Below are positions 52,923-60,920 of a stretch of DNA of 64,000 nt, one piece after another (the first letter of the stretch is position 1; each line of letters begins with the position of its first letter). The notes under the pieces were generated by a model. That model was not told where the DNA came from and did no database searches. It saw only the letters and a list, made by a program, of their open reading frames with translations. The translations under genes were made by a program, and so were the position numbers. The DNA comes from Pseudomonas shahriarae (GTDB lineage Bacteria; Pseudomonadota; Gammaproteobacteria; Pseudomonadales; Pseudomonadaceae), in contig NZ_CP077085.1 in the NCBI RefSeq assembly GCF_014268455.2, positions 2,645,001-2,709,000 of the forward strand. The letters run 5' to 3'.

Positions 52923-54200
52923 ATGAATGATCAGGCCAATAGCGTCGATGAACGCTACGCAACGACACCTGTAACCCTCACGGGCTGGAGCCGCCAGGAC
53001 ACGACCTGGATGCTTGGCCTGTTCGGCACGGCGATTGGCGCCGGCACCTTGTTTCTGCCCATCAACGCAGGCCTGGGCGGCTTCTGGCCGTTGCTGATCC
53101 TCGCGCTGTTGGCGTTCCCCATGACCTACTACGCACACCGTGGCCTGACCCGCTTTGTGCTGTCGGGGCGTGCGGGCTCGGACATCACTGAGGTGGTTGA
53201 AGAGCATTTCGGCATCAAGGCCGGTGCTTTGATCACCTTGCTGTACTTCTTTGCGATCTTCCCGATCCTGCTGATCTACAGCGTGGCGCTGACCAATACC
53301 GTCGCAAGCTTTATGTCGCACCAACTGCACATCGAGCCACCGCCACGGGCGCTGCTGTCGTTTGTGCTGATCCTGGGCCTGCTGGCCGTGGTGCGTTGCG
53401 GCGAGCAGGTGATCGTCAAGGCCATGAGCCTGATGGTCTATCCGTTTATTGTTGCCTTGCTGTTTCTGGCGGTGTACCTGGTTCCGCACTGGAATGGCGG
53501 CATCCTCAGCACGGCCAGCACCGTTCCGGCACCGTCGGCGCTGCTGCACACCCTGTGGCTGGCGATTCCGGTGATGGTGTTCTCGTTCAACCACTCGCCG
53601 ATCATCTCGGCCTTCGCCGTTGACCAGAAACGCCAGTACGGCGCCCACGCCGAAGAGCGCAGCTCGCAGATCCTGTCCCGTGCCCACTTGTTGATGGTGG
53701 CGATGGTGATGTTCTTCGTGTTCAGCTGTGTGCTGACCCTGTCACCGGCCCAACTGGCCGAAGCCAAGGCGCAGAACCTGTCGATCCTGTCTTACCTGGC
53801 CAACCACTTCGATAACCCGACCATCGCCTTTGCCGCGCCATTGATTGCGTTTGTGGCGATTGCCAAGTCCTTCCTGGGCCACTACATCGGCGCCAGCGAA
53901 GGCCTCAAGGGCCTGATCGTCAAGAGCGGCCGCCGCCCGGGCGCCAAGGCCCTGGACCGCATGACTGCTGGCTTTATGCTGGTGGTGTGCTGGATCATCG
54001 CCACCCTGAACCCGAGCATCCTGGGGATGATCGAGACCCTGGGTGGGCCGATCATTGCTTCGATCCTGTTCCTGATGCCGATGTACGCGATCCGCAAGGT
54101 GCCGGCCATGGCCAAGTACCGTGGGCAGATGTCCAATGTGTTCGTGACCCTGGTCGGCCTGGTCGCCATCTCTTCGCTGATTTACTCGCTGATCCCTTGA
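52923..54200 (+). CDS. sdaC: Serine transporter of the HAAAP family
   Basis: A 425-residue inner-membrane H+/serine symporter with strong resemblance to E. coli SdaC: TTWMLGLFGTAIGAGTLFLPINAG at the N-terminus, AFPMTYYAHRGLTRFVLSG, ITEVVEEHFGIKAGALITLLYFFAIFPILLIYSVALTNTV, LWLAIPVMVFSFNHSPIISAFAV, ISILSYLANHF-like LSILSYLANHFDNPTIAF, and the closing NPSILGMIETLGGPIIASILFLMPMYAIRKVPAM. About eleven hydrophobic segments are seen. It imports L-serine, possibly also threonine. It is monocistronic. Its terminator hairpin (54250-54287) lies inside the end of the convergent rhlI gene. Confidence 0.92.
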   Translation: MNDQANSVDERYATTPVTLTGWSRQDTTWMLGLFGTAIGAGTLFLPINAGLGGFWPLLILALLAFPMTYYAHRGLTRFVLSGRAGSDITEVVEEHFGIKAGALITLLYFFAIFPILLIYSVALTNTVASFMSHQLHIEPPPRALLSFVLILGLLAVVRCGEQVIVKAMSLMVYPFIVALLFLAVYLVPHWNGGILSTASTVPAPSALLHTLWLAIPVMVFSFNHSPIISAFAVDQKRQYGAHAEERSSQILSRAHLLMVAMVMFFVFSCVLTLSPAQLAEAKAQNLSILSYLANHFDNPTIAFAAPLIAFVAIAKSFLGHYIGASEGLKGLIVKSGRRPGAKALDRMTAGFMLVVCWIIATLNPSILGMIETLGGPIIASILFLMPMYAIRKVPAMAKYRGQMSNVFVTLVGLVAISSLIYSLIP

Positions 54201-54242: not shown

Positions 54243-54821
54243 CTAGGCAACGGCCGAATCAGCGTGCAGCGCGATTCGGCCGTTTTTCTGCCAGGCCGGA
54301 AAACTCAGTGCTACCACATGGTCGTTGTTCACGCGTTGCGGGGCGCCGAGGCGACTCAATTGCACGCCATTTTTCAGGAAATAACGCTCCAGCGCTGGAG
54401 TGGTCACTGCCACCACCTGATTGGCGCCGTGGCTCCAGGCATGGTGCAGGCTGTTCCACCAGACGCGCATCGGTAGGGTGCCTTTCTCCAGGGCGCGGGC
54501 GGCAAAACGCGACACTTCCCAGGTGTCACGGCTGCGCGGGCTTGGCTGGTCGCACAGAAACCCGAAGACTTCCGACAGTAGATAAGGTTGGGTGGTCGGC
54601 AACAGCCGTGCGCAACCGCAGACCTGGCCTTTTGTGTCCAGGGCGAGGATATGGCGCGTGTCGGCCTGGTCGAACTGATCGAATTCACGTTGGGGCCGGG
54701 CGTGGGTGGAGTCCAGCTGCCAACCCAGTTGCTCGATGAACACTTCGTGTCGATAGCGGCCCAGGTCGTCCTCAAGGGCTGCAGACAGTTCATGGTGATG
54801 GCGGGTGATGATGCTGATCAT
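54243..54821 (-). CDS. rhlI: Acyl-homoserine-lactone synthase RhlI
   Basis: A LuxI-type enzyme (192 residues) making an acyl-homoserine lactone from S-adenosylmethionine and acyl-ACP. Similarity to P. aeruginosa RhlI is clear (YRHEVFIEQLGW, REFDQFDQADTRHILAL, CGCARLLPTTQPYLLSEVF, VVAVTTPALERYFLKNGV). All invariant LuxI residues are seen: Arg24, Phe28, Trp34, Asp48, Asp51, Arg72, Phe86, Glu102 and Arg105. The expected product is a short-chain signal such as C4- or C6-HSL, inferred from homology. It follows rhlR by only 27 bases; in P. aeruginosa the gap is larger and holds its own promoter, so here rhlI probably depends on the rhlR transcript. Confidence 0.95.
   Translation of the reverse strand: MISIITRHHHELSAALEDDLGRYRHEVFIEQLGWQLDSTHARPQREFDQFDQADTRHILALDTKGQVCGCARLLPTTQPYLLSEVFGFLCDQPSPRSRDTWEVSRFAARALEKGTLPMRVWWNSLHHAWSHGANQVVAVTTPALERYFLKNGVQLSRLGAPQRVNNDHVVALSFPAWQKNGRIALHADSAVA
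54250..54287 (+). terminator. Terminator of sdaC embedded in the rhlI coding end
   Basis: An eleven-base perfect stem (acggccgaatc / gattcggccgt) with a 12-base loop is followed by ttttt. It starts 50 bases after the sdaC stop and lies wholly within the last codons of rhlI on the other strand. Confidence 0.8.
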
Positions 54822-54848
54822 TGGATGTCCTTATCGTGATCGTCGGGC

Positions 54849-55574
54849 CTAGATCAGGCCCAGTGCGGCGGCATAGGCAGCCGCCAGTGTCTTGTTGGCT
54901 GCGCCGAATTTCTTCTGGATGGTCTTGAGGTGAAAGTTCACCGTGTTGATGGAGATGGTCAGGATCAGCGCGATCTCGCCTGAACTCTTGCCGTCGGCGG
55001 TCCACTGCAAAATTTCCCGCTCACGCAGGCTGAGGCAGACCGACGGGTGGGCGCGTTCGTTATGGCCCAGATCTGTCAGGCGCAGCGTCACCTGTTCGAG
55101 GATGCAGCGCAGGCGCAATTGAATTTCGTCGCTTTCAGCCCGCGAAATAGGATCCTGGCGCCGGGCCACGGACAGTACCCGCAGCGAGTGATCGTGGCTG
55201 CGAATCGGCAGCGTGGCGCCGATGCACAGACCCCAATCCCGAGCTTCCAACCATAGCTTGCGGCTGTTTTCAAACAGTGCGTCGTTCCACAGCACCATCT
55301 CGGTGGAACGCAAGCCACTGAGGATCGACGGATCGACAGCCGCGTAGTTTTGCTCCTGGTAATGTTCCAGCCACCTTTCGGGGTAAGAGCCGTGAATCTC
55401 GGTTTTTGGTCGGGTAAAAGGGGTCAGGTGGCGTACGGCATAGGCGTAATACTCGAACCCCAATTGCAACACTTCCCGCTCCAGCAGCGCGAACACTTGT
55501 GCTCCTCCCTGTTGCTTGAGCATCTCTATCCGCAAGCGATTCCACCAGCGGATGAGGTCGTTTTCCTTCTCCAT
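54849..55574 (-). CDS. rhlR: Quorum-sensing transcriptional regulator RhlR
   Basis: A LuxR-type regulator of 241 residues, the same length as P. aeruginosa RhlR and strongly similar along its whole length. The autoinducer domain has Tyr64, Trp68, Tyr72, Asp81, Pro82 and Trp96 in PERWLEHYQEQNYAAVDPSILSG and EMVLWNDAL, the residues expected to contact the acyl-HSL. The DNA-binding domain is LSLREREILQWTADGKSSGEIALILTISINTVNFHLKTIQKKF. The start at 55574 is supported by GAGG nine bases upstream. It lies 119 bases after rhlB. It should activate rhlA through the las/rhl box at 58076-58095. Confidence 0.95.
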   Translation of the reverse strand: MEKENDLIRWWNRLRIEMLKQQGGAQVFALLEREVLQLGFEYYAYAVRHLTPFTRPKTEIHGSYPERWLEHYQEQNYAAVDPSILSGLRSTEMVLWNDALFENSRKLWLEARDWGLCIGATLPIRSHDHSLRVLSVARRQDPISRAESDEIQLRLRCILEQVTLRLTDLGHNERAHPSVCLSLREREILQWTADGKSSGEIALILTISINTVNFHLKTIQKKFGAANKTLAAAYAAALGLI

Positions 55575-55693
55575 GGACAGTCGCCTCGATTCCTGGAACC
55601 TTTGGCAATCTAGCCCACGTGATCTTTCTGTCAAACTTTTCCGGTGCTTTGCCGACGGCTCTGGCACGGCACTTTTGCCCAAGAGGCCGGTGT

Positions 55694-56965
55694 TTATGAC
55701 GCTTGGCGCAGGCGAGGTATTGAATGGTGCGCGTGGCACTGTTCAATGGCCTTGACCGCTGTTTCACAGGACGCCGCATCGGCGGGCATCAGGCTGCTCG
55801 CCCGAGCACAGGCCTGTTGCAATCGGGTGTCGTGTAGCAGCGCTGTGATCGCCCCTTGCAGGTCTTGTCTGTCCAAGGGCAGGGCAAGACGTATTCCGCA
55901 CCCCATGCGCACCAGTCGTTCGGCGTTATCGAACTGGTCATGGGCGATCGGCAGGACAATCTGTGGGATGCCGGCAGCCAGCGCCAGGCTCATGGCGCCA
56001 ATGCCGCCGGGGTGGACCAGCCCGGCTGCGCGGGGCAGCAGCGAACTCATCGGCAAAAACGGACGTTGCATCACCGTGGGCGGCAAATCGCTGGTCACCG
56101 GCCGATCACCGGTCAGAAAAATACCGCGTGCGCCGACCCTGTGCAGCGCTTCCAGGGCGAAGTGATAAAACTGCTGGTCAAAGTGCTCAGTGGAGCCTTG
56201 GGTGAAAACCACGGGGGGCGGTCCGGCATCGAGGAAGGCCCGGGTCTGTTCATCGAGCCCCAGGGTGCCACCATCGAACAGTGGGAAGCCAGCCATGTGC
56301 AGGGGCTGCGGCCAGTCTTGCTGGACGGGGGCGAACCATTCGGGGAACAGGCAAATCACGCCTTGGGGGGCATGCATCCATTGGCTGAAGATGTTCTTCA
56401 CCGCGCCCGGCAATCCGTGTTTGCGGCGCAGGGCATTGATTTGTGGGGCACAGGTCCGGTCCAGGCTCAGGTATTCGATCCCGCGCCAGAGCAATTTGCG
56501 CACCGTCAAGGGCAGGCGACGTGACACGTTGAAAGTGGGGTGTACAGGCGGTAAATGTGCCGACAGTAGGGTTGAAGGGGACACTTGGACCGAGAGGTAA
56601 GGGAAACCGTATTTTTCATGGGCTATACGTGCACCCAGGGCCCACAGTGAGCCGACCACTACCCTATCGTCAGTGTTATGCGCGGTTACATAATCGTAGA
56701 CCGGCTCTAATAGGCCTGCGATGGCTTGCCACAACACGCTGAAGGAAGTCTTCGGATCCCACAGGCGGGGATCGCCCATGGCAGCGTTGTAGGTCGCCTC
56801 ATCGCATAACGGCACGAAGTCCAGGCCCCGGGCCTCGATGGTGCGTTGAAACGCCGGCATGCTGCACAAGGTTACCTGATGACCGCGTAGGGTCAGTGCC
56901 GCGCCCAGGCCGATAAAGGGAAAAACGTCACCGGCCGAACCGATGGCAATCATGATTACTCGCAT
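55694..56965 (-). CDS. rhlB: Rhamnosyltransferase chain B RhlB
   Basis: A GT1-type glycosyltransferase that joins dTDP-L-rhamnose to the lipid dimer made by RhlA, giving mono-rhamnolipid. It has 423 residues from the ATG at 56965 (MRVIMIAIGSAGDVFPFIGL); two further in-frame ATGs (56968, 56974) lie just upstream, and AAGGA is eight bases before the chosen one. Matches to P. aeruginosa RhlB are extensive: TYNAAMGDPRLWDPKTSFSVLWQAIAG, VVVGSLWALGARIAHEKYG, QVSPSTLLSAHLPPVHP, FTQGSTEH and the nucleotide-sugar site LVHPGGIGAMSLALAAGIPQ...HDQFDNAERLVRMGCG. It is 25 bases downstream of rhlA in the same operon. It is probably peripheral to the inner membrane. Confidence 0.95.
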   Translation of the reverse strand: MRVIMIAIGSAGDVFPFIGLGAALTLRGHQVTLCSMPAFQRTIEARGLDFVPLCDEATYNAAMGDPRLWDPKTSFSVLWQAIAGLLEPVYDYVTAHNTDDRVVVGSLWALGARIAHEKYGFPYLSVQVSPSTLLSAHLPPVHPTFNVSRRLPLTVRKLLWRGIEYLSLDRTCAPQINALRRKHGLPGAVKNIFSQWMHAPQGVICLFPEWFAPVQQDWPQPLHMAGFPLFDGGTLGLDEQTRAFLDAGPPPVVFTQGSTEHFDQQFYHFALEALHRVGARGIFLTGDRPVTSDLPPTVMQRPFLPMSSLLPRAAGLVHPGGIGAMSLALAAGIPQIVLPIAHDQFDNAERLVRMGCGIRLALPLDRQDLQGAITALLHDTRLQQACARASSLMPADAASCETAVKAIEQCHAHHSIPRLRQAS

Positions 56966-56990
56966 CATCCACATCCTTGTTCAAAAGTGC

Positions 56991-57884
56991 TCAGGCGAAG
57001 CTCAACTGCGCTCGGTGAGGGGGCGCCATGCAAAACGCCTCTGGCCGGGCGTCGCGATGCGTCAGCAAATGGCCGAGCAACGCGCGGTGCACGCCGTTGG
57101 CCGCAGCCCTGGATTCCAGATCCAGAAAGTGCCCGCTGCTCTCGGCCGTGGAGAAGCTGCAGTCGCGGATGTACTGCTTGAAGCGCTGCACGTCCATGGC
57201 GCTGGTGTATTCGTCCCAGGCACCGTTCAAAAAGTGCACGTGGCTGTCGATGTTCGAAAGCTGGGGCAGGTATGCCCCTTCATTGAGCTTGAGGGCCTGG
57301 TCGATATGGAATCGCGCCTGATGCTGCTCGGCGTTGATCAACTGCGCCATGTGCTGTTGATTGGCACTCTTGAGGCGGGGCGGCAGGTGCTTGCCCAGCG
57401 TCTGGTTGAGCAAGTGCCCGATACCCGCGTTGTCATCCCGGGCCATGAGTGCCTGGGCGCCGCTGACGTAGTCGAGCATCGGACCATTGAGGCCGGGAGC
57501 GAATGACATCACCACCGAGCTTTCGACGTTGTCCGGCTTCTGGGCGAGGGCCAGCAAGGTCGACAGGCCGCCCCAGGATGCGGAAACCAGATGGTGAATA
57601 TTGAAGCCTTCGATCAAGGCCAGCAGGATCTGGACTTCATCGTCCTTGGTCACCAGGCACCGATTCGGGTTGTGAGCCCGGGAGTTTCCGGCGAATGGCA
57701 AGTCAAACAGCACCACGTTGAAGTGTTCGGCCAGGCACTTGCTGGTACGGGCAAAGGCCGAGGTTGTGGCCATGGCGCCATTGACCAGCAGCACATTCTT
57801 TTTATCGGGGGCATCGCCGATTTGTTCCACCGACACCGCATAGTCCTTGAAGACGTTCTTGATCACATATTGATTGCGCCACAT
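56991..57884 (-). CDS. rhlA: 3-(3-hydroxyalkanoyloxy)alkanoate synthase RhlA
   Basis: An alpha/beta-hydrolase-fold acyltransferase (297 residues) that couples two 3-hydroxyacyl chains into the HAA lipid precursor of rhamnolipids. Similarity to P. aeruginosa RhlA is high: [52 protein letters not shown], the nucleophile elbow [16 protein letters not shown] (Ser103), [17 protein letters not shown] with the catalytic Asp, and [14 protein letters not shown] with the catalytic His. GGAGGTG lies five bases before the ATG. It is the first gene of the rhlAB transcript, with a leader of about 190 bases to the las/rhl box. Secreted HAA also acts as a surfactant itself. Confidence 0.96.
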
Positions 57885-58075
57885 AACACACCTCCATTAA
57901 GCACTTAAAAACGGGTGAGAGCGCCCCTGCCACCGGGTACGGGCATCGACGACGAGGCTTGGCTGTTTTTATTAGAAGTCGTACGGCATACAGCGCGAGT
58001 ACATCCAAAGCAGGCGGATCCCATGACGCGGGCATCAGGGTGTGGAGAGTTTCGGCCTTCAAGGCGCGGCGGGAC
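57885..58075 (-). promoter_or_regulatory. rhlA promoter core and 5' leader
   Basis: About 190 bases between the las/rhl box and the rhlA start. The end of the leader is aagtgcttaatggaggtgtgtt before the ATG, with a small ttaagtgcttaa palindrome next to the Shine-Dalgarno. No consensus -10 is obvious. In P. aeruginosa the rhlA leader holds a ROSE-type RNA thermometer; a UYGCU anti-Shine-Dalgarno is not evident here by eye. Confidence 0.45.
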
Positions 58076-58095
58076 AACTACCTGATCTGGTAGGT
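58076..58095 (-). promoter_or_regulatory. las/rhl box upstream of rhlA
   Basis: On the minus strand the 20-mer is ACCTACCAGATCAGGTAGTT. It fits the CT-N12-AG consensus of LasR/RhlR boxes and is nearly a perfect palindrome (ACTACCTGATC...). It resembles known P. aeruginosa boxes such as those before rhlI and hcnA. It lies upstream of rhlA and downstream of the acnB terminator, where an activator site is expected. Confidence 0.85.
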
Positions 58096-58199: not shown

Positions 58200-60809
58200 T
58201 TAGGCTTGAACCACCGGAATGTTGGCGCTTGCTGCGATTTTACGGAACTCGGCGATCTGGTCGAAGTTCAGGTAGCGGTAGACGTCACTGGCCATGGTGT
58301 CCAGTTTCGCTGCGTAGCCCATGTACTCTTCGACGGTCGGCAGGCGACCCAGGGTGGAGGCGACTGCCGCCAACTCGGCCGATGCCAGGTAGACGTTCGC
58401 GCCATCACCCAGACGGTTCGGGAAGTTACGGGTCGACGTCGACACTACGGTCGAATTCGGCTCAACACGTGCCTGGTTACCCATGCACAGCGAGCAGCCC
58501 GGCATTTCCATGCGCGCGCCAGCCTTGCCGTAGATGCCGTAGTAGCCTTCTTCGGTCAGTTGGTGAGCGTCCATCTTGGTCGGCGGCGACAGCCACAGAC
58601 GGGTTGGCAGCTGACCCTTGACCTGTTCCAGCAACTTGCCGGCAGCGCGGAAGTGACCGATGTTGGTCATGCACGAACCGATAAACACTTCGTCGATCTT
58701 CTCGCCAGCGACGCTGGACAGCAGACGGGCGTCGTCCGGGTCGTTTGGCGCGCAGAGGATTGGCTCGTTGATTTCGGCCAGGTCGATCTCGATGACTTCG
58801 GCGTATTCGGCGTCGGCATCGGCTTCCATCAGCTCAGGGTTGGCAACCCAGGCTTCCATCGCTTGGGCACGACGTTCCAGGGTACGCGCATCACCGTAGC
58901 CTTCACCGATCATCCAGCGCAGCAGGGTGATGTTGGAGTTCAGGTACTCGGTGACGGAGTCTTTCGACAGCTTGATGGTGCAACCGGCAGCCGAACGTTC
59001 GGCCGAGGCGTCGGACAGCTCGAAAGCCTGCTCCAGCGTCAGGTCGTTCAGGCCTTCGATTTCCAGGATGCGGCCGGAGAAGGCGTTTTTCTTGCCTTTC
59101 TTCTCAACGGTCAGCAGGCCGGACTGGATTGCGTAGTAAGGAATGGCATGAACCAGGTCACGCAGGGTGATGCCAGGTTTCATCTTGCCTTTGAAACGCA
59201 CCAGGATCGACTCAGGCATGTCCAGTGGCATTACGCCAGTGGCTGCGGCGAACGCTACCAGGCCAGAACCGGCCGGGAACGAAATGCCCATCGGGAAACG
59301 GGTGTGGGAGTCACCACCGGTACCCACGGTGTCCGGCAGCAGCATGCGGTTCAGCCAGCTGTGGATGATGCCGTCGCCTGGACGCAGCGATACACCGCCA
59401 CGGGTCATGATGAAGTCAGGCAGGGTGTGGTGGGTGGTCACGTCGATCGGCTTTGGATAGGCCGCGGTGTGGCAGAAGGACTGCATCACCAGATCGGTGG
59501 AGAAGCCCAGGCACGCCAGGTCTTTCAGTTCGTCACGGGTCATTGGACCGGTGGTGTCCTGGGAACCCACGGTGGTCATCTTCGGTTCGCAGTAGGTACC
59601 TGGACGAACGCCTTTGCCTTCCGGCAGGCCGCAGGCCTTGCCGACCATTTTCTGGGCCAGGGTGAAACCCTTGCCAGTGTCGACCGGTGCTTCAGGCAGC
59701 TTGAACAGGTCGGTAGGGCCAAGACCCAGCTCAGCGCGAGCCTTGTCGGTCAGGCCACGGCCGATGATCAGCGGGATACGGCCGCCGGCACGGACTTCGT
59801 CCAACAGGACCGGGGTCTTCATTTCGAAGGTGGTCAGGACTTCGTCGGTGCCGTGTTTGCACACTTTGCCAGCATGCGGGTACAGGTCGATCACGTCGCC
59901 CATGTGCATGTTGGTGACGTCGAATTCGATTGGCAGTGCGCCAGCATCTTCCATGGTGTTGTAGAAGATGGGAGCGATCTTGCTGCCGAAGCAGAAGCCA
60001 CCAGCGCGCTTGTTAGGCACGTACGGGACGTCGTCGCCGAAGAACCACAGCACCGAGTTGGTTGCCGACTTACGGGACGAACCGGTACCGACCACGTCAC
60101 CGACGTAAGCGATCGGGAAGCCCTGGCCGCGCATTTCTTCGATCTGCTTCATCGGGCCGGTCTTGCCTTGCTCGTCCGGCACGATGCCTTCACGGGCCAT
60201 TTTCAGCATGGCCAGGGCGTGCAGCGGGATGTCAGGACGGGACCAGGCATCGGGAGCAGGGGACAGGTCGTCGGTGTTGGTTTCGCCGGTGACCTTGAAC
60301 ACGCGCAGGCTGATCTTGTCGGCCAGGGTCGGGCGGTTCTTGAACCACTCGCCGTCGGCCCAGGACTGGATCACTTCCTTGGCGTGCGTGTTGCCGTTCT
60401 TGGCTTTTTCCGCGACGTCGTGGAATGCATCGAACATCAGCAGGGTGTGCTTGAGCTGGGCAGCTGCAACGGCGGCCAGTTCAGCGTCGTCCAGCAGCTC
60501 GACCAGGGTCACGATGTTGTAGCCGCCTTGCATGGTGCCAAGCAGTTCAACCGCGCGCTTTTTGTCGATCAGGGGGGAAGACACTTCGCCCTTGGCCAGG
60601 GCAGACAGGAAACCGGCCTTGACGTAGGCAGCTTCGTCAACGCCTGGTGGAATGCGGTTGGTGATCAGGTCAACGAGAAACTCTTCTTCGCCAGCCGGGG
60701 GATTTTTCAGCAGCTCGACCAGGCCTGCGGTTTGTTCGGCGTTTAGCGGCTGGGGAACGATACCCAGGGCTGCACGCTCTTCGATATGTTTGCGGTAGGC
60801 TTCAAGCAC
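58200..60809 (-). CDS. acnB: Bifunctional aconitate hydratase 2 / 2-methylisocitrate dehydratase
   Basis: The main TCA-cycle aconitase, isomerising citrate to isocitrate through a [4Fe-4S] cluster; it also acts in 2-methylcitrate breakdown. It has 869 residues from a GTG at 60809, chosen because GAGGG lies nine bases before it and because the family begins at [16 protein letters not shown]; an ATG further upstream is not supported. The N-terminal HEAT-like domain (to about 160) is typical of AcnB, followed by the swivelling domain with [22 protein letters not shown]. The cluster cysteines are seen in [12 protein letters not shown] and [11 protein letters not shown]. AcnB-specific segments such as [18 protein letters not shown] are present. 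It is a single-gene unit with its own terminator. Confidence 0.97.
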
Positions 60810-60920
60810 AGTTATTACCCTCATCAGTGGTCCCACGGGACGCTCATCCAGACATGCACGGCACGCATGCGCTCGGGGGCTTTTTGGGCCGTAGAGCCAG
60901 CGCTGCCGGCATTTCTCACA

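Follow-up and report, generated by a model that had tools for sequence, protein, structure and literature searches.

An intact rhlABRI operon between sdaC-like and acnB genes in Pseudomonas shahriarae, and partial modules at the same site in its relatives

Operons of the rhlABRI kind, which join surfactant genes to a quorum-sensing pair, are already in print for the Pseudomonas fluorescens species group and are part of its expected biology. In P. fluorescens PF07, expression of rhlABRI (D7M10_RS11580-65) is down in mature biofilm and up in an rpoN mutant (PMC9207406), and in PF08 transcription of rhlI/R rises with N-butanoyl-homoserine lactone (C4-HSL), lasI/R not having been found (PMC9062736). 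Strain A506 has rhlA together with rhlB, LMG 05825 and P. chlororaphis NRRL B-30761 have rhlAB-rhlR, rhlA has also been reported at a second location, next to a transporter, and most P. fluorescens strains are without rhlA in synteny with rhlB (PMC7054101). Complete LuxI/R systems were counted in 87 of 601 fluorescent Pseudomonas genomes (PMC8546723). Here, we analyse the rhlA, rhlB, rhlR and rhlI genes on a 64 kb stretch of P. shahriarae DNA (the window, G000:C1:2645001-2709000), which is part of a single-contig genome of 6.05 Mb (G000). The locus has the same genes as those of PF07 and PF08 and comes from the same species group; an earlier note on this DNA was right that a complete module is uncommon, and in view of these reports its presence is not a surprise.

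Based on the genes, their control elements and the state of the site in relatives, we consider it highly probable that the window carries an intact rhlABRI operon that would direct mono-rhamnolipid synthesis under C4-HSL-type self-induction, and that it is an old inheritance which has repeatedly been lost. The genes are transcribed in the order rhlA-rhlB-rhlR-rhlI as intact open frames on the minus strand, spanning 54243-57884 between an sdaC-like gene and acnB, as the earlier note had described.

56991 to 57884, minus strand: rhlA, 3-(3-hydroxyalkanoyloxy)alkanoic acid (HAA) synthase, 297 amino acids (8ik2, 389 bits)
55694 to 56974, minus strand: rhlB, putative rhamnosyltransferase 1 type glycosyltransferase, 426 amino acids (PF03033 and PF06722)
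54849 to 55574, minus strand: rhlR, acyl-homoserine lactone (AHL)-dependent activator, 241 amino acids (7r3j RhlR, 345 bits)
54243 to 54821, minus strand: rhlI, AHL synthase, 192 amino acids (PF00765, 79.8 bits; 3p2f, 131 bits)
58076 to 58094, minus strand: RhlR-type lux box, CCTACCAGATCAGGTAGTT, perfect match about 190 bp upstream of rhlA
58049 to 58054, minus strand: A-rich hexamer resembling a -10 element, some 21 nt downstream of the box; position approximate and placed by eye
55607 to 55634, minus strand: sigma-70-like rhlRI promoter, TTGACA-16-TAGATT, present in 12 of 12 rhl loci
52923 to 54200, plus strand: left flank, serine/threonine transporter family gene (sdaC-like), converging on the rhl operon (TIGR00814, 547 bits, above cut-off)
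58200 to 60836, minus strand: right flank, acnB, its 3' end facing the upstream side of the rhl operon (TIGR00117, 1536 bits, above cut-off)

None of the four Rhl proteins reached the curated cut-off of an NCBIfam model, and their identities were drawn from solved relatives, domains and residues. The closest solved relative of RhlA is the 3-(3-hydroxydecanoyloxy)decanoate synthase 8ik2, which we take to be P. aeruginosa RhlA; S103, D224 and H252 of the window protein align with its S102, D223 and H251, presumably the Ser-Asp-His catalytic triad, and these positions are retained in all ten rhlA genes aligned. RhlB combines a Glyco_transf_28 and an EryCIII-like domain and adjoins rhlA, an arrangement present in the seven complete loci at the sdaC-acnB site and in two complete loci elsewhere; family and gene place together suggest that it is a rhamnosyltransferase. 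For RhlR the closest solved relative is RhlR 7r3j, and the start at 55574 gives the same length as PAO1 RhlR. The two proteins share 66% identity across 238 residues, which shows, together with the close relatives named below, that the genome is not of the P. aeruginosa type. The earlier note had all catalytic and ligand residues retained, which applies to the RhlA triad and to eight residues of RhlI that we assume to belong to the conserved LuxI-type core (R24, F28, W34, D48, D51, R72, E102 and R105); among 13 RhlR positions that we take to matter in the C4-HSL pocket, 11 are identical to PAO1, the exceptions being V60, replaced by I, and R37, replaced by Q. AHL synthase 3p2f is the closest solved relative of RhlI. 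The four genes are under purifying constraint across complete loci, with ratios of nonsynonymous to synonymous substitution rates (dN/dS) of 0.05-0.15 in six pairs, each with G000.

The operon appears to be controlled from a single box. In a genome-wide scan, the site at 58076-58094 was the only one in G000 with no or one mismatch to the 19-base pattern; the right edge in the earlier note, 58095, lies one base beyond it, and its core is conserved in 12 of 12 rhl loci aligned. With a matrix built from 26 PA14 RhlR motifs (PMC10732425 Table 1), on which the known motifs score 12.9-27.5, the box ranked first in the window at 23.5 bits, the next place scoring 14.7. Together with two flanking bases (GACCTACCAGATCAGGTAGTT) it shares 18 of 21 positions with the PA14 phzA1 site (CACCTACCAGATCTTGTAGTT), which is among the regions bound by RhlR in chromatin immunoprecipitation sequencing (ChIP-seq; PMC10732425). 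An A-rich block follows 20-21 nt past the box in the 12 loci compared. TTGACA-16-TAGATT precedes rhlR in all 12 aligned loci, including those without rhlA and/or rhlB; since a pattern scan, in which this promoter matched at 10 of 12 positions, found 2 sites against 1.2 expected, its assignment rests on conservation. Unlike PA14, where RhlR binds near rhlI (PMC10732425), no box or good matrix site was found before rhlI: the 27-base rhlR-rhlI gap contains no box, and 54243-55700 holds none of the twelve top-scoring matrix sites in the window. Between rhlB and rhlR, a terminator scan, itself weak (4 found against 3.6 expected), gave no minus-strand site.

We also considered a ROSE-type RNA thermometer of rhlA, as in P. 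aeruginosa. The rhlA leader gave no Rfam RNA thermometer match up to E 5, and its sole Rfam match, ncr1175, was below gathering score. The leader fold does pair the ribosome site, but 0 of 45 pairs were compensated and the covariation term was unfavourable, so a thermometer is not claimed.

We hypothesise that RhlI makes a short-chain AHL, most likely C4-HSL, and that AHL-bound RhlR would switch on the single box upstream of rhlA. RhlA would then make HAA, to which RhlB would add one rhamnose to give mono-rhamnolipid. Basal rhlRI expression could come from its own sigma-70-like promoter, and read-through from the box promoter could provide positive feedback on rhlRI. Such an operon would probably be self-inducing and yield surfactant when cells are crowded. 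The signal would be the strain's own, as the earlier note had proposed, because G000 holds one LuxI (RhlI) and two AHL-type LuxR proteins, and no second LuxI/LuxR pair such as LasI/LasR was found in the genome above Rhl. The other AHL-type receptor is a solo LuxR without a LuxI partner at G000:C1:5408743-5409159 (L002:1336-2154), beside a ferredoxin-reductase-like frame as judged by eye. Synthesis of dTDP-rhamnose (deoxythymidine diphosphate-rhamnose) is likely, because rmlD, taken alone of the rml genes, scores 340.6 bits against a cut-off of 224.

The locus resembles P. aeruginosa rhlABRI in gene order and direction (PMC7054101), enzyme families, most RhlR positions and box type. It differs in that no good RhlR site was found in the rml region fetched, no LasI/LasR pair was found and no rhlC was identified. 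Its genomic site is also another than that of the PAO1 cluster.

RhlR might instead govern a broad regulon as in P. aeruginosa, the rhl operon being one target among many, and we give this somewhat less than an even chance. In PF08, added C4-HSL altered transcription of protease, motility and siderophore genes, although these effects came from added C4-HSL and an inhibitor and not from a knock-out (PMC9062736). In PA14, 40 ChIP sites were bound by RhlR and only 26 carried the motif, many of them imperfect, so a strict box search misses targets (PMC10732425). Against a broad regulon, each of the 11 rhl-bearing genomes searched has a single zero-mismatch copy of the 16-base core, which lies at its rhl locus, and allowing one mismatch gave 15 forward matches over the 11 genomes against 8 in a reversed control; the 19-base pattern at up to three mismatches gave 16 matches in G000 against 15 in the control. 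The best matrix score in the stretch fetched from the rml region, which PA14 RhlR binds (PMC10732425), was 8.5 bits, and no box or good matrix site lies upstream of a second rhlA-like gene described below. Finding one box per genome falls short of showing that the regulon is a single operon, since many of the sites bound by RhlR in PA14 match poorly. Two candidate second targets in G000 were set aside: the next best box, with 2 mismatches (G000:C1:397064), lies by eye inside a LysR-type frame, and a site at 1139731 is in coding DNA.

Complete modules were uncommon in the genus sample, in line with the earlier note. Among 398 genomes searched with RhlA and RhlR (RhlB and RhlI were checked by tblastn in fetched loci), RhlA was found at at least 70% identity in 7 and RhlR at at least 62% in 11, with all four genes in 8 of those 11. 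The complete operon occupies the sdaC-acnB site in six of the 398 (G000, G191, G032, G309, G219 and G263) and in P. cedrina (L005), and other sites in G386 and G086; two duplicate records (L004 with G191, L006 with G263) were counted once. A search with RhlA limited to close relatives returned Pseudomonas sp. WS 5079, P. cedrina and P. paracarnis by name. Wider sampling added no carriers: among relatives of G360, 2 of 95 genomes matched, both already found, and a genus re-run returned the same eleven (11 of 387).

Comparison of the sdaC-acnB interval across relatives, which the earlier note had suggested, uncovered partial modules at the same site: rhlA, rhlR and rhlI in G350, rhlB, rhlR and rhlI in G108, and rhlR and rhlI in G360. 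All three retain the rhlR promoter, and their box stands upstream of whichever rhl gene now comes first. Wherever rhl genes were found at the site, in ten distinct loci (7 complete, 3 partial), rhlR and rhlI were both present; loci were detected via RhlA and RhlR, and ones with only rhlB or only rhlI were detectable among 40 rhl-less loci. These 40 relatives were chosen as top-ranking sdaC matches and were compared with each of the four Rhl proteins. Gap lengths were taken from the 29 with both flanks, the other 11 having no acnB within the DNA fetched, and were 129-615 bp in 17 and 1.8-3.8 kb in 12. Four of the larger gaps were read by eye (L106, L119, L128 and L130). Three of them (L106, L119 and L128) hold a SulP-type transporter-like frame, accompanied in L119 (4256-5404) by a transposase-like frame; a SulP-like frame also lies beside rhlBRI in G108, in the opposite direction (L075:10596-12242). 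RhlI of the three partial loci has 215-219 residues against 191-192 in the other nine aligned, apparently through a C-terminal extension. They are 70-73% identical to the window RhlI, which makes them about as distant from it as an AHL synthase of P. chlororaphis (70%). A relic of rhlB in G350 and G360 is no more than a tentative reading: their common pre-rhlR stretch opens with an rhlB-like ribosome site and start, but protein matches were weak (best E 0.017).

These loci raise the tentative and rather unlikely idea that rhlRI is a self-standing loop in fluorescent pseudomonads, selected for something other than rhamnolipid, in which rhlA, rhlB or both drop out and rhlRI stays with its promoter and box. 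Across six pairs involving partial loci, dN/dS of rhlR and rhlI was 0.13-0.33. We treat preferential retention of signalling as no more than a lead, because the three partial loci come from few lineages, G350 and G360 being sisters in both trees described below.

The intact operon might also yield mainly HAA, or answer to another signal such as N-hexanoyl-homoserine lactone (C6-HSL), in place of mono-rhamnolipid and C4-HSL. RhlI shares just 52-56% identity with proteins labelled as AHL synthases of P. aeruginosa, RhlB is known by family and place, and RhlA of P. fluorescens LMG 05825 yields HAA in Escherichia coli (PMC7054101), mainly C10-C14 and C10-C12 species (PMC7642724, PMC7054101). We find this alternative doubtful in view of the 11 RhlR positions shared with PAO1, the constraint on rhlB in complete loci (dN/dS 0.07-0.15) and the presence of rmlD.

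G000 encodes a second RhlA-like gene (rhlA2, G000:C1:5780969-5781790; L037:7970-8860), 58% identical to the window RhlA and, in G000, where its neighbours were read, directly followed by an MdtD/DHA2-type major facilitator superfamily exporter gene, which recalls the second rhlA by a transporter in the fluorescens group (PMC7054101). Matches of the rhlA2 class (56-61% identity over most of the query) occur in 72 of the 398 genomes plus one more partial, a count made without the G386 and G086 modules; each of the six sampled carriers of a complete module at the sdaC-acnB site has such a match, and the 19 rhlA2-class proteins in an RhlA tree form one clade. A third RhlA match in G000 is 45% identical and presumably PhaG-like. 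Given this second, boxless gene beside an exporter gene, knocking out rhlA need not abolish HAA, and the rhlA-null strain proposed in the earlier note as an HAA test could mislead.

That note's statement that no rhlC is present holds for the window. The genome has one rhamnosyltransferase-family gene of the TIGR01556 kind outside it (G000:C1:2184398-2185249; L003:1456-2382), which at 196.2 bits falls just under the 200.55 cut-off. We do not assign this gene as rhlC: by eye it seems to sit in a polysaccharide-type cluster, its neighbours being a polymerase-like frame and another glycosyltransferase-like frame. It could be mistaken for rhlC, and di-rhamnolipid production by this strain is unlikely.

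Most likely, the operon already stood between sdaC and acnB when the sampled P. fluorescens-type subclades split, and would then have been lost repeatedly; we prefer this to recent transfer because the trees largely agree and because of the three partial modules at the same site. A flank tree of acnB and sdaC (37 rows, without G305 and G131 of the 29 gap loci and without G386 and G086, whose modules lie elsewhere) was compared with an rhlRI tree of 12 rows. The two trees are mostly concordant, with G309 basal among complete loci, G000, G191 and G032 grouped, and G350 with G360. The rhl trait clusters weakly on the flank tree, requiring 7 changes against a mean of 8.9 for shuffled labels, with a value as low in 35 of 500 shuffles. 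Synonymous divergence (dS) among complete loci was 0.22-0.71 for the rhl genes, 0.11-0.30 for acnB and 0.23-0.51 for sdaC.

Several points weigh against an old, intact and self-inducing rhamnolipid operon. G219, P. cedrina, G263 and G108 are placed differently in the rhlRI and flank trees. Between clades, rhl dS (0.82-1.56 for G000 against G350, G360 and G108) exceeds that of the flanks (0.34-0.62), which could reflect transfer with replacement or just weaker codon bias, and rhlR dS between G000 and G219 (0.27) is lower than sdaC dS (0.48), which could reflect exchange. In the RhlA tree, the rhlA2 clade, the window RhlA, the RhlA of G386 and G086 and PAO1 RhlA form a near-polytomy, so RhlA alone fails to show PAO1 orthology. 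Read-through from rhlB to rhlR is something we infer, and support for product and regulation comes from homology only.

Recent transfer of the module as an island into the space between sdaC and acnB would account for the lack of rhl genes in its closest rhl-less relatives as judged by sdaC (97% identity: G361, G052, G143 and G390), where the gap measures 270-534 bp, for the change count hardly below the shuffled mean and for the G219 rhlR being nearer to G000 than its sdaC is, but it is very improbable given the largely congruent trees, the same-site partial modules in more distant lineages, ordinary base composition (0.58-0.61 in the rhl genes against 0.617 in the window) and rhl dS among complete loci that is not below that of acnB and sdaC taken together.

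With old presence and repeated loss as the preferred history, the relatives amount to a natural rhlA/rhlB deletion series at one site, in which the box and rhlRI are kept. To our search of the literature, the papers found, as excerpted, named neither an rhl locus between sdaC and acnB nor an rhl deletion series. Knock-outs of rhlA in this clade should also remove the second rhlA-like gene. With no Las pair above it, the series offers a test of whether quorum sensing in fluorescent pseudomonads is kept because of surfactant or because of other targets.

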